33,493 nt of DNA, taken from contig CAMAYN010000017.1 in assembly GCA_945862285.1 (NCBI GenBank), positions 1 through 33,493 of the forward strand, given 5' to 3'. Below, one piece after another: positions 2,288 through 20,988 of this stretch (positions are counted from its first letter, which is position 1; the number at the start of each line of letters is the position of its first letter). A program made the translations under genes and the position numbers. The notes beneath the pieces were generated by a model. It saw only the letters and a list, made by a program, of their open reading frames with translations, did not search any database and was not told the origin of the DNA. Source of the stretch: Akkermansia muciniphila. Its GTDB lineage: Bacteria > Verrucomicrobiota > Verrucomicrobiia > Verrucomicrobiales > Akkermansiaceae.

Positions 2288-4141
2288 ATGGCAGCCACTT
2301 ATACTGAAGATGACATCAAGAGCCTCGACTGGCGCGAACATATCCGCATGCGCCCCGGCATGTACATCGGCAAACTCGCCGATGGCTCATCGCCCGACGA
2401 TGGCATTTACATTTTGTTAAAGGAAGCCGTGGATAACTCCATCGACGAGCACATCATGGGATTTGGGAAAGAAATCCGCATCGACATCGACGACCATGGC
2501 CGCGTGGAAGTGCGGGATTTTGGACGGGGGATTCCTCTCGGCAAACTCTTCGACTGCGCTGCGCAAATCAACACTGGTGCCAAGTACGATAGCGAGGCCT
2601 TTAAAAAATCCGTCGGCCTCAACGGTGTCGGCATCAAGGCCGTGAATGCGCTCTCCTCCTTCTTCGAAATCCAAGCCTGGCGCGAAGGCGAAACAAAAGC
2701 ACTAGAGTTTTCCAAAGGCCAGCTCACCCAGGATATGAAAAATCCCCGCAAAGAAGATGGAGCCAACGGCACCCGTCTCGCCTTTGATGTGGATCGCACC
2801 ATTTTCCCCGAACGCACTAAATTCCGCGAGCCCATCGTCGAGAAAATGTGCCGTTATTATTCTTACCTGAATCCCGCCCTGACCATCATTTTCAACGGGA
2901 AAAAATTTCGCTCTAAAGACGGGTTGCTCGACCTCCTCCGCGAGGAAATGGAAAAAGCCCCGCTCTACCCGCCCATCCACCTCACCGGCAAGGACATCGA
3001 AATTGCCTTCACTCACAGCGAAGAAAGCAGCGAAGAATATTACACCTTCGTCAATGGCCAAAACACCTCCCAAGGTGGCACGCACTTGCAGGCTTTTCGC
3101 GAAGCCATCGTCAACGTCATCCGCGGATTTTATAAAAAACAATGGGAACCTGCCGACATCCGCGCCGGCATCGAGGCGGCGATCTGCGTACGCATCGAAG
3201 AACCCGTCTTCGAGTCACAAACGAAAACCAAACTTGGATCTGCCAATACCAAGCCGAACGGCGGGGAATCTCTACGCACGTTCATCGGCAATTTCCTCAA
3301 AGAACACCTCGACAACTACCTGCACAAAAATCCGCAAACCGCCGAGGCGATCCAAAAGCGCATCATCGCCGCCGAGCGCGAACGCAAGGACCTGAAAGGC
3401 ATCCAAAAACTCGCCCGCGAGCGATCCCGCCAAGCGAAAGTCCACAACAAAAAACTCCGCGACTGCCGCATTCACCTCGATACCAAGCACAAACAGCGCG
3501 AAGAAAGCACCATCTTCATCACCGAGGGCGACTCCGCCTCCGGCTCCATCACCAAGTCCCGCGATGTCGAAACGCAGGCTGTTTTTTCCCTTCGTGGTAA
3601 ACCGCTCAACACCTTTGGCCTCGCCCGCAAAGTGGTTTATGAAAATGAGGAGTTCGCCTTGCTGCAAGCCGCGCTCAACATCGAAGACGGTATGGCCGAC
3701 CTGCGCTACAACCGCGTCGTCATCGCTACCGATGCCGATGTCGATGGCATGCACATTCGCTTGCTATTGCTGACATTTTTCCTCCAATTCTTCCCCGAAT
3801 TGATTCGCGATGGCCATGTTTACATTTTGCAAACGCCACTTTTCCGTGTGCGTAATAAAAAGGAAACCATTTACTGCTACAGTGAAGAAGAGCGCGTCGC
3901 CGCCATGGCAAAGCTCGGAAAAAACCCCGAAATCACGCGTTTCAAAGGTCTAGGGGAGATCTCGCCGGATGAGTTCCAATTTATGATCGGAGCCGACATG
4001 CGCCTCGACCCCGTGAACTACATCGAAGGCAAAGGCGTGCGCGAGCTGCTGACCTTCTACATGGGCAAAAACACACCCACCCGCCAAGAATACATCATCG
4101 AAAACCTCCGCGAAGACGTCGATCGCCAGATCGCGGTGTGA
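2288..4141 (+). CDS. parE: DNA topoisomerase IV subunit B-like (ParE/GyrB family) ATPase subunit
   Basis: The ATPase subunit of a type IIA topoisomerase, which drives strand passage with its A-subunit partner. The N-terminal GHKL ATPase has [11 protein letters not shown] (about 18-28), EAVDNSIDE (46-54, with the catalytic glutamate), GRGIP (79-83) and the [10 protein letters not shown] lid (111-120). The transducer domain has the QTKTKLG loop (311-317). The TOPRIM domain has TEGDSASG (412-419) and TDADVDG (481-487). [13 protein letters not shown] (551-563) closes the protein. At 617 residues it lacks the insert of gamma-proteobacterial GyrB and is nearer ParE in size. No parC/gyrA follows; the next gene is convergent. 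Whether it works as Topo IV or as a second gyrase B cannot be decided from this window. Confidence 0.9.
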
Positions 4142-18439: not shown

Positions 18440-18733
18440 ATGAAACAAGTCCGCATCATTAACATCGAGGAAACTATCGGCAAAACCGTCGGTCGCCGCC
18501 TGCCGCCCGACCCACTCTGTCCCAAAAACCACTCCATCGCATCCTCCAAAAGCTGGAAAAAAGCATTTCCTTACGGATACCCACGAAGAAGCCGAATTAT
18601 GGAAGAAGAAGAATATCCAAGTGAGAGCGAGCTGACAACGCGCGAACCCAGCACCGAGGACCTCGTCAACCTGCTATTCCTCCGCGTACACTACGCCGAT
18701 CAAATTTTCCGCCAACCGGACGCAGAGCCTTGA
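18440..18733 (+). CDS. Small hypothetical protein, possibly a gene remnant
   Basis: A 97-residue frame of no recognised family. It starts KQVRIINIEETIGKT, has a basic middle (KSWKKAFPYGYPRRSR) followed by an acidic stretch (EEEEYPSESE), and ends in a helix-like NLLFLRVHYADQIFRQ. There is no visible Shine-Dalgarno before ATG 18440. It sits in a poorly coding stretch between the secreted protein and the hairpin run. It may be a real small gene or a decayed one. Confidence 0.4.
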   Translation: MKQVRIINIEETIGKTVGRRLPPDPLCPKNHSIASSKSWKKAFPYGYPRRSRIMEEEEYPSESELTTREPSTEDLVNLLFLRVHYADQIFRQPDAEP

Positions 18734-18770
18734 ACTTCGTGTCCCTAAACCCCGAATCCGAATTGCATCC

Positions 18771-18936
18771 GTCCCAACGGGACATGTCAAAACGAGACCG
18801 CGACTTTAATTGCGGTTCATGGCTCCATGTTTCTTGGCTTGGCACTTGAAAAGTGCGGCCGCTCTGGAAGCTGTGTCTTGCTGCAGAGCACCAAAGTCTG
18901 CCATTTTTGAAAAATGACGGAGATTTTGCTAAATCT
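18771..18936. repeat. Run of short inverted repeats (hairpins) upstream of tig
   Basis: The 280-base gap before tig holds consecutive inverted repeats: GTCCC-AAC-GGGAC (18771-18783), ACCGC/GCGGT (18797-18816), GCACTT-GAA-AAGTGC (18842-18856), GCGGCCGC (18855-18862), GCTCTG...CAGAGC (18861-18889), CATTTTTGAAAAATG (18902-18916) and AGATTT-TGCT-AAATCT (18921-18936). Each is perfect over 5-7 bp. The arrangement looks like a dispersed REP-type or structured-RNA element rather than coding sequence. An opposite-strand frame through it (18666-18962) is considered spurious. Confidence 0.6.
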
Positions 18937-18948
18937 GCGGCTTTTCCA

Positions 18949-18978
18949 TTGACAGCCGACACGTGACGTTCCTATTTT
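18949..18978 (+). promoter_or_regulatory. Promoter of the tig-clpP operon
   Basis: A perfect TTGACA (18949-18954) is followed after 18 bases by TATTTT (18973-18978), 37 bases before the trigger factor ATG. The -35 begins 13 bases after the last hairpin of the repeat run, so that element borders the promoter directly. Confidence 0.55.
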
Positions 18979-19014
18979 CCCGCCCCCCGTAAGCGATTAA
19001 CCAAATTTTTCCGA

Positions 19015-20331
19015 ATGAATATTACTGTCGAACGCCTCCCGAAATGCCTTGCTACCTTGCATGTCGATATTCCTGCCGATGCCGTTACCTTCGAACGCGA
19101 GACTTTATTGAAGACCTATGCTAGCAAAGCAAAAATCCCAGGCTTCCGCCCAGGAAAAGCACCTAAAGCGGTCATCGCTAAGAAATTCCAGAAGGAAATT
19201 GAGGAAGAAATGGAGTCGGATTTGGTGAATCGTGCCTTGGAGACCTCGATCAAACAGGAGAAACTCAAGGTGCTCGACTTCGGAACTCCCTCTGACATGG
19301 GTGTGCGCGAAGATGGTAGCTTTGGCTTTAAAACAAACCTCGTTCTTGCTCCAGACCTCGTTCTGCCCGATTACAAAAACATCGCTGTATCGGTAAAATC
19401 AGAGGAAGTGACGGAGGAGGAAATTTCCAAGCAATTAGAAGATCTCCAAAAGCGCTTTGCGGAACACGATGCTGTGGAAGGTCGTGCGATAGCGATGGGC
19501 GACATGGGAGTGATTGATTTCCATTCGACGATTGATGGCGTAAAGCTGGAAGAAGCACTCGGCAAGCCTGCAGGTTATCTTGCCGGACGTGAGGGATTCT
19601 GGATTCGCATGGAAGATGATGCTTTTTTACCAGGATTTGCGACGCAGCTTGTCGGCACAGAATTAGGAGCCGCGCGCGATGTGGACATTGTGATTCCTGA
19701 AGATTTCCCGATGGCTGACCTCGTCGGCAAAACCTTGCGCATTCACGTAGTTTTGAAAGAAATCAAGCAAGCGATTCTCCCTCAAATCGATGATGCATTC
19801 GCAGCAAAACTCATGGGTCCAGGGAAAACTACGGATGATTTGCGTTCGACGATATCTGATGGCCTTGCCACCAACAAGAAGAAGGAAAACATCGAGGAGA
19901 AAATCGACCAAATTGTTTCCTATCTTAGCTCTCAAGTGGAGTTCGAGATTCCGGAAGATTTGCTGATGTCTGAGGCGCAGCGCCAGACGGATCAAATGGT
20001 GCAGGAAGCATCGAAGAGCGGTATGAGCGATGAGGAAATCATGGAAAAACAAGAAGATTTCTTTGCGCAAGCGCAAGAGAGTGCGACGACGAACATTAAG
20101 ACGAATTTCATTCTGCAAGAAATCGCTAGCGTAGAAAATGTGACCATCTCTGATAGCGAGCTAGTGAATCACCTCGCGTATGTGGCGCAGCAGCGCAAAG
20201 AAGACCCCATCAAGTTCATCAAAGGATTGCAACGTGGCGGACGCTTACCCGGCATACGTAATTCGCTGTTGGTAAATAAAGTCCTTGATTTTTTGGTGGA
20301 ACAGGCTTCGGTATCATTCATCACAGAATAA
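19015..20331 (+). CDS. tig: Trigger factor, ribosome-associated chaperone
   Basis: Trigger factor binds the ribosome at the exit tunnel and shields nascent chains; it also has prolyl isomerase activity. The 438-residue protein (usual 430-450) has the N-terminal ribosome-binding domain with the signature IPGFRPGKAPKAVI (about 41-54), the PPIase region around MGVIDFHSTIDG and GFATQLVG, and a helical C-terminal domain with LLMSEAQRQTDQM. The PPIase core is rather divergent. It lies directly upstream of clpP with a 6-base gap, the classic tig-clp order. Confidence 0.95.
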   Translation: MNITVERLPKCLATLHVDIPADAVTFERETLLKTYASKAKIPGFRPGKAPKAVIAKKFQKEIEEEMESDLVNRALETSIKQEKLKVLDFGTPSDMGVREDGSFGFKTNLVLAPDLVLPDYKNIAVSVKSEEVTEEEISKQLEDLQKRFAEHDAVEGRAIAMGDMGVIDFHSTIDGVKLEEALGKPAGYLAGREGFWIRMEDDAFLPGFATQLVGTELGAARDVDIVIPEDFPMADLVGKTLRIHVVLKEIKQAILPQIDDAFAAKLMGPGKTTDDLRSTISDGLATNKKKENIEEKIDQIVSYLSSQVEFEIPEDLLMSEAQRQTDQMVQEASKSGMSDEEIMEKQEDFFAQAQESATTNIKTNFILQEIASVENVTISDSELVNHLAYVAQQRKEDPIKFIKGLQRGGRLPGIRNSLLVNKVLDFLVEQASVSFITE

Positions 20332-20337
20332 CAAATT

Positions 20338-20988
20338 ATGAATCCCTATTCGCCGCATTTCCAAGCCCCACAAAGCCCTAGCAACAATTACTACGTACCC
20401 GTCGTCATCGAGCAAGACGGACGTGGCGAGCGCTCCTTTGATATTTACTCGCGGTTGCTGAAGGATCGCATCATTTTCATTGGTACGGCGATTGATGATT
20501 ATGTGGCGAACTCGGTCATCGCGCAGTTGTTGTTTTTGCAAATGCAAGATCCGAAAAAGGACATTCACATCTACATCAATTCTCCCGGTGGCTCGGTCAC
20601 GGCGGGATTGGCGATGTATGATACCATGCAGTTCATGACCTGCGACGTGAATACGTACTGCATCGGCATTGCAGCCTCCATGGGTTCAGTTCTGCTCACC
20701 GCGGGGACGAAAGGGAAACGCTTTTGCCTACCAAATTCTCACGTGATGATTCACCAAGTGTCAGGCGGCGCGAGTGGCACGGCCTCTGATGTGGAGCGCA
20801 CGATTGGTTTCATGTTTAATCTTAAATCCCGTTTAAATGGGATTCTGGCGAAGCACAGCGGCCATACTCCAGAAGAAATTGAGCGTGACTCGGATCGCGA
20901 TAACTACATGTCTGCTGAAAGAGCCGTGGAATATGGATTGGTTGATAAAATTCTGAGCCGAAAAGAAATGCCCGACGTTAAGGGATAA
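20338..20988 (+). CDS. clpP: ATP-dependent Clp protease proteolytic subunit
   Basis: ClpP forms the barrel-shaped serine protease that degrades proteins fed by ClpX or ClpA/C. The 216-residue protein has the serine in GIAASMGS (S114), the histidine in MIHQVSGG (H139) and the aspartate in RDNYMSA (D188). The spacing, 25 and 49 residues, is exactly that of E. coli Clp[18 protein letters not shown] (81-97) is the usual N-terminal core. The loop after the histidine ([10 protein letters not shown]) differs from the common LGGFQGQATD form. About 20-35 residues before the core may include a propeptide. clpX is not next to it, unlike in many bacteria. Confidence 0.95.

Follow-up and report, generated by a model that had tools for sequence, protein, structure and literature searches.

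The chain of inverted repeats directly upstream of the trigger factor gene tig is very probably an accumulation, specific to this lineage, of short palindromic mobile repeats that landed between an upstream open reading frame (ORF) and a genus-wide tig promoter and then decayed. We consider it most likely a graveyard of RAYT-mobilised repeats and not a regulator of tig. The DNA analysed, 33,493 nucleotides referred to as the window, makes up contig 17 of a 3.6-Mb Akkermansia muciniphila assembly in 279 contigs. The first three hairpins of the chain have relatives in two dispersed repeat families, termed unit A and unit B, and for these hairpins the cause is an ordinary one. A RAYT found nested in frame in metH is more unusual and a stronger lead than the hairpins upstream of tig.

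An excess of short inverted repeats upstream of tig

The chain lies between a putative ORF of 97 amino acids without Pfam match (18440-18733, + strand) and tig (19015-20331, + strand; Pfam Trigger_N 9.7e-32, Trigger_C 6.2e-26), which is followed by clpP (20338-20988; CLP_protease 3.2e-77, Pfam). The initial annotation had described at least five perfect inverted repeats within 166 bases, denser than expected by chance and ending 12 bases before a consensus TTGACA, and this description was borne out. A script search located six such repeats in 18771-18936: those at 18771-18783, 18797-18816 and 18883-18901 have 5-bp arms, and those at 18842-18856, 18902-18916 and 18921-18936 have 6-bp arms. An additional 6-bp pair, GCTCTG/CAGAGC, was read from the sequence at 18861-18866/18884-18889. 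The last repeat ends 12 bases before the TTGACA at 18949.

Counting non-overlapping pairs whose arms are 5 bp or longer and whose loops measure 3-12 nt, we found 7 in 18771-18978. Dinucleotide shuffles average 1.65, and 7 was reached by 0 of 1000 of them and by 0 of 321 window tiles of equal size. The excess is real, yet it is built from short arms and is smaller under stricter settings. When loops were limited to 8 nt, we counted 4 pairs whose arms reach 5 bp or more (1.15 in shuffles, equalled in 16 of 1000) and 3 whose arms reach 6 bp or more (0.34 in shuffles, equalled in 2 of 1000), while no pair in 18771-18978 has arms of 7 bp or more at loops of up to 12 nt. The fold energy of 18740-18960 is mildly low on the + strand (z -2.35) and on the - strand (z -2.04), with 4 of 200 shuffles in each case.

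Hairpins 1 and 2 form a divergent copy of a RAYT-flanking repeat

Unit A (18769-18817, + strand) consists of hairpin 1 (18771-18783), a linker and hairpin 2 (18797-18816), and starts 35 nt past the stop codon of the upstream ORF. A search for dispersed copies of hairpin 1, taken as a 23-mer, returned nothing but the window copy from 10 genus genomes, and that candidate was rejected; the kinship of unit A surfaced only afterwards, through short-word comparison and structure. In short-word BLAST, hairpin 1, linker and hairpin 2 align with repeats located beside Y1_Tnp genes. A covariance model, R1, was built from 27 copies at RAYT and other loci, which were chosen as clear two-hairpin copies with a permissive palindrome pattern and visual inspection. 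The window copy was excluded from training, and the candidate rows omitted loci overlapping the window as well as duplicate loci. Both sides vary in 10 of the 14 pairs of this alignment, and 95.2% of its 378 cells pair.

The top match of R1 in the window is 18769-18817, at 24.6 bits and E 1.8e-5 for a search of 33 kb (about 100 times worse at whole-genome scale), the runner-up scoring 11.8 bits. The covariation seen is a property of the repeat families, not of a tig leader. R1 has matches in each of the 10 genus genomes. At least 42 places in the window's own genome reach E<=1, with 150 of 1196 candidates having been scored there, and the best copy in this genome reaches 42.7 bits compared with 24.6 for the window copy. 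Relative to close copies, hairpin 2 of the window carries compensated pair changes plus two mismatched pairs; by R1 score, the window unit belongs to the family in both sequence and structure, as a divergent member.

The family borders RAYT genes. R1 matched at E<=0.01 in 18 of 30 Y1_Tnp loci, and in 9 of the 21 loci that supplied no training row; in the window's own genome, the RAYT at C10:9417-9752 has R1 matches on each side. At another locus of this genome (G000:C42:8600-9100, L181), a unit-A copy has next to it, in the right part, a tandem array with a period of about 21 nt (TCGGTACGGTCGGAGGGTCAA-like).

Hairpin 3 lies in a decayed GTGG-type REP

Unit B occupies 18836-18862 on the - strand. 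The family consensus is GTGGCGGCRCTTTYCAAGYGCCAWGCC, and the window copy, read on the reverse strand, is GCGGCCGCACTTTTCAAGTGCCAAGCC. Over the 25-nt core (18836-18860) it has 1 mismatch, with one stem base changed, and its foot reads GCGG instead of the GTGG of the family, outside the GT[AG]G pattern. The window copy looks like a relic, a decayed relative and not an intact REP member.

A search for the 25-nt core that tolerated up to 3 mismatches returned 35 copies. They are spread over 8 of the 10 genus genomes, with 10 copies in the window's own; the same pattern read backwards gave 0. The copies are dispersed, in a number that is modest by REP standards. A degenerate 27-mer found 51 stretches in genome_contigs, 50 of them titled Verrucomicrobiota and one merely 'Bacterium'; contigs bearing the repeat are mostly titled Verrucomicrobiaceae and Akkermansiaceae. 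The stem has 10 pairs with a 2-nt bulge, and 97.7% of 300 cells are paired among 30 distinct rows. Six of the 10 pairs are invariant, and one varying pair has A-U and G-C in 13 of these rows each. Unit B thus has the shape of a REP palindrome (20-40 nt, imperfect stem, short loop), and at some loci it forms inverted dimers (L046/L087, L094, L103).

Association with RAYT genes was observed in relatives, where inverted unit-B copies border a RAYT at two loci (L130 and L147). The window's own genome yielded no RAYT with the exact unit-B stem on its flanks, and the one at L189 is flanked by a different stem only. The repeat also has a preferred placement: in 41 of 77 distinct copies, no more than 30 nt separate the stop codon of a frame of at least 100 codons from the unit-B head that follows it (0-3 nt in 28 of them). 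The tail is so placed in 5 of 77 copies, and random places are in 87 of 1540 cases. The window copy is not placed in this way. At four loci (L106, L127, L131 and L135) unit B lies in frame within one long reading frame, which is uvrA by Pfam in L127 and by likeness in the other three.

The promoter-proximal hairpins are single copy

The remaining hairpins (18861-18889, 18902-18916 and 18921-18936) gave chance-like matches only, whether in the window's own genome, in 195 and 97 family genomes or among the loci compared. The fold of 18862-18948 is borderline on the + strand (z -2.03, p 0.027) and unremarkable on the - strand (z -1.17, p 0.11). These hairpins may be older decayed copies or chance. 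Two candidate identities were rejected. The stretch 18857-18900 was tried as a known Verrucomicrobia repeat: across 97 family genomes, the 19-mer 18868-18886, allowing for 2 mismatches, gave no match beyond the window itself except two with 2 mismatches, compared with 4 matches for the reversed control. The whole stretch of 184-281 nt, tried as a single dispersed element, has BLAST-level relatives for the unit-B core alone.

The initial annotation had read the chain as a dispersed REP/MITE-like element. This reading stands for hairpins 1-3 (18769-18862) of the six or so, but not for 18861-18936, and what is dispersed is not one element since hairpins 1-3 represent two families. The outcome named there as speaking against it, a single-copy sequence lacking relatives, is what we found for 18861-18936 but not for hairpins 1-3. 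The BLASTN comparison that it proposed returned relatives of the unit-B core and, at BLAST level, none for the rest.

The repeats are not shared with other tig loci, the promoter is

The predicted tig promoter (18949-18978, + strand) comprises TTGACA at 18949-18954, an 18-nt spacer and TATTTT at 18973-18978. A TTGACA precedes the tig ATG at 63-66 nt in 10 of 10 genus genomes. A TTCCCGCCCC-like stretch directly past the tig -10 box (18955-18990) is also common to most congeners. Upstream of the promoter, the gap sequence differs in all nine congeners. Unit A was detected by R1 at E<=0.01 in 0 of 9 congener tig loci, with one match of 12.1 bits above that cut (E 0.044, L034), and the unit-B core was found in none of them. 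One congener (G005) has another GTGG-like palindrome 167 nt upstream of its tig. The promoter is genus-wide, separate from the repeats and older than them; it is not their creation.

Alternative explanations

The arrangement next to tig could be taken to indicate a cis-acting structured RNA or DNA element regulating tig, such as a leader, an attenuator or an operator array: the hairpins stand directly upstream of a consensus promoter, 18902-18936 adjoins the -35 box, and fold energy is mildly low on each strand. We regard this as very unlikely. The repeat units are missing in 9 of 9 congeners despite the conserved TTGACA, no match in the window reached the curated score of any Rfam family, and hairpins located upstream of the promoter fall outside any mRNA that starts there, which counts against a tig leader. 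The structured RNA that the initial annotation had offered as its second reading finds no support either, given the missing repeat units in congeners, the absence of an Rfam match and the lack of a terminator in the gap. No intrinsic terminator, defined as a G+C-rich stem with a T run behind it, was detected in 18734-19014, and a scan of 4.1 kb gave 3 candidates against an average of 5.0 in shuffles. This result also bears on a role at the 3' end of the upstream transcription unit, where the hairpins would stop transcription or protect mRNA, as proposed for REPs elsewhere. The closeness of unit A to the upstream stop codon and the head-first placement of unit B past stop codons across its family speak for such a role; but the window unit B is oriented the opposite way, the upstream ORF has no family match and the gap has no terminator to offer, and we consider a 3'-end function unlikely. 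A chance cluster of short palindromes would fit the lack of any 7-bp arm, fold z-scores of only about -2 and the hairpins of 18861-18936 that have no relatives. It is nevertheless extremely improbable for the chain, given that no shuffle and no tile reached its 7 pairs (loop <=12), and chance is already unlikely for units A and B, which belong to dispersed families.

We therefore return to the pile-up of mobile repeats. The window units resemble their families in sequence and structure, copies of both are dispersed, RAYT genes are bordered by like repeats, and congeners lack the units at tig. Against this reading, the window copies are worn, unit B having no GTGG foot and unit A being mismatched and weaker-scoring, and 18861-18936, about half of the chain, is without known relatives. 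In the proposed mechanism, RAYT enzymes (HUH/Y1, IS200-type) would act in trans on single-stranded hairpins, copying or moving units A and B and scattering them into intergenic gaps; the two units would have settled upstream of tig and then decayed. We infer mobilisation by RAYTs from known RAYT biology, as described in PMC6006769 and PMC3733652. The account is a passive one, in which the order of arrival would be that of insertion next to a pre-existing promoter and the repeats would presumably have no dedicated effect on tig. With no tig riboregulator indicated, a false lead is removed, and two RAYT-linked repeat families are documented in Akkermansiaceae.

RAYT genes nested in metH, leuS and carB

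At L130 and L147, the RAYT between paired unit-B copies lies in frame inside metH (by Pfam for L147). The window's own genome also has a RAYT in metH, at about 2557-3141 on the - strand of L189 (G000:C141:1-8000), and further loci are L194 (with L147), L193, L195 and L229-L242. Its position in metH is that of the activation domain. As judged by eye in L130, L147, L189, L193 and L195, inverted GTGG...GCC palindromes stand on either side of the RAYT; the flanking stems are unit B in L130 and L147, and GTGGCGGAGGCGTCTCGCCTCCCAGCC in L189. The latter is dispersed too: it occurs at 93 places, distributed over 9 of the 10 genus genomes, and the control gave 0.

A probe for the empty site, made of the joined metH flanks, matched in 109 genomes among the 117 of the family that were searched. 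In 18 of these the match is interrupted at one and the same site, around query residue 150, where a gap of about 650-900 nt separates two parts whose ends overlap between query residues 141 and 156. In 6 others the gap at this site is about 37-94 nt, and most other matching genomes have a single uninterrupted match through it. Left uncounted were G102, which is split at 122/123 and not at 150, and G123 and G092, whose partial matches do not cross the site. In 19 loci (the 18 genomes plus L130) the RAYT segment, 266-347 amino acids including short flanks, is free of stops. All 19 segments contain an NHVH motif, and their alignment has an invariant tyrosine column. Five of the short-gap loci were read out (L244-L248, the sixth genome, G117, being left out) and have a short in-frame insert and no RAYT; these inserts are possibly scars of lost RAYTs.

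Distances between RAYTs correlate with those between the host metH sequences (Mantel r 0.395, reached by 0 of 2000 permutations), which indicates that the insert has been at least partly inherited with metH. Mean identity is 0.51 for the RAYT and 0.71 for metH, and the two trees disagree in places. Y1_Tnp was likewise identified by Pfam in frame inside leuS (L190, G000:C134) and carB (L191, G000:C83) of the window's own genome and, by likeness, inside each of these genes in one congener (L192 for leuS, L196 for carB). Literature searches, some of them coarse and one weak for metH, returned no report of a RAYT nested in metH, leuS or carB.

Tentatively, and with less than even confidence, we propose that the GTGG REPs of this family, the window unit B included, are spread by an intein-like RAYT residing inside housekeeping enzymes and kept at a fixed metH site across genera. 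In this picture methionine synthase would carry the nested RAYT as an additional domain, translated in frame and with the RAYT's own REPs on either side; the RAYT would have relatives in leucyl-tRNA synthetase and carbamoyl-phosphate synthase, and would be lost via deletions that leave short in-frame scars. If this is true, shelter in an essential gene would explain the persistence of a REP transposase. Should the fusions be made and active, they would provide a testable answer to how single-copy, domesticated REP transposases are maintained over the long term.

Relation to known repeat systems

By description, unit A resembles the TIR repeats of TIRtrons/TIRYTs as presented in section 16 of PMC3733652: both are double palindromes that flank tyrosine transposase genes and form a scattered, moderately abundant family. 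Unit A often starts with CGTC, a likeness to the CGTC-tagged REPs of the same source. The CGTC of unit A is paired in the first stem, however, whereas the tag is unpaired in the published description, and CGTC-tagged REPs are said there to have no dedicated transposase.

The unit-B family, a 27-nt palindrome with a GTGG foot, some inverted dimers, a RAYT-bordering position in relatives and a frequent location at gene ends, resembles the GTAG/GTGG-tagged REPs and REPtrons as described in Di Nocera et al. 2013 (PMC3733652) and in the TnpA-Y1 survey (PMC6006769). It differs from them in the GCGG of the window copy, in having only 10 copies in the window's own genome and in a range that is nearly all Verrucomicrobiota. 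Its in-frame occurrence in uvrA and metH recalls the intragenic REPs already published in section 15 of PMC3733652, Opitutus terrae uvrA included. The window copy, by comparison, is intergenic. The palindromic elements of Rickettsia are a further parallel to these in-frame copies. What sets the present case apart from both is that the transposase itself lies in frame in metH.
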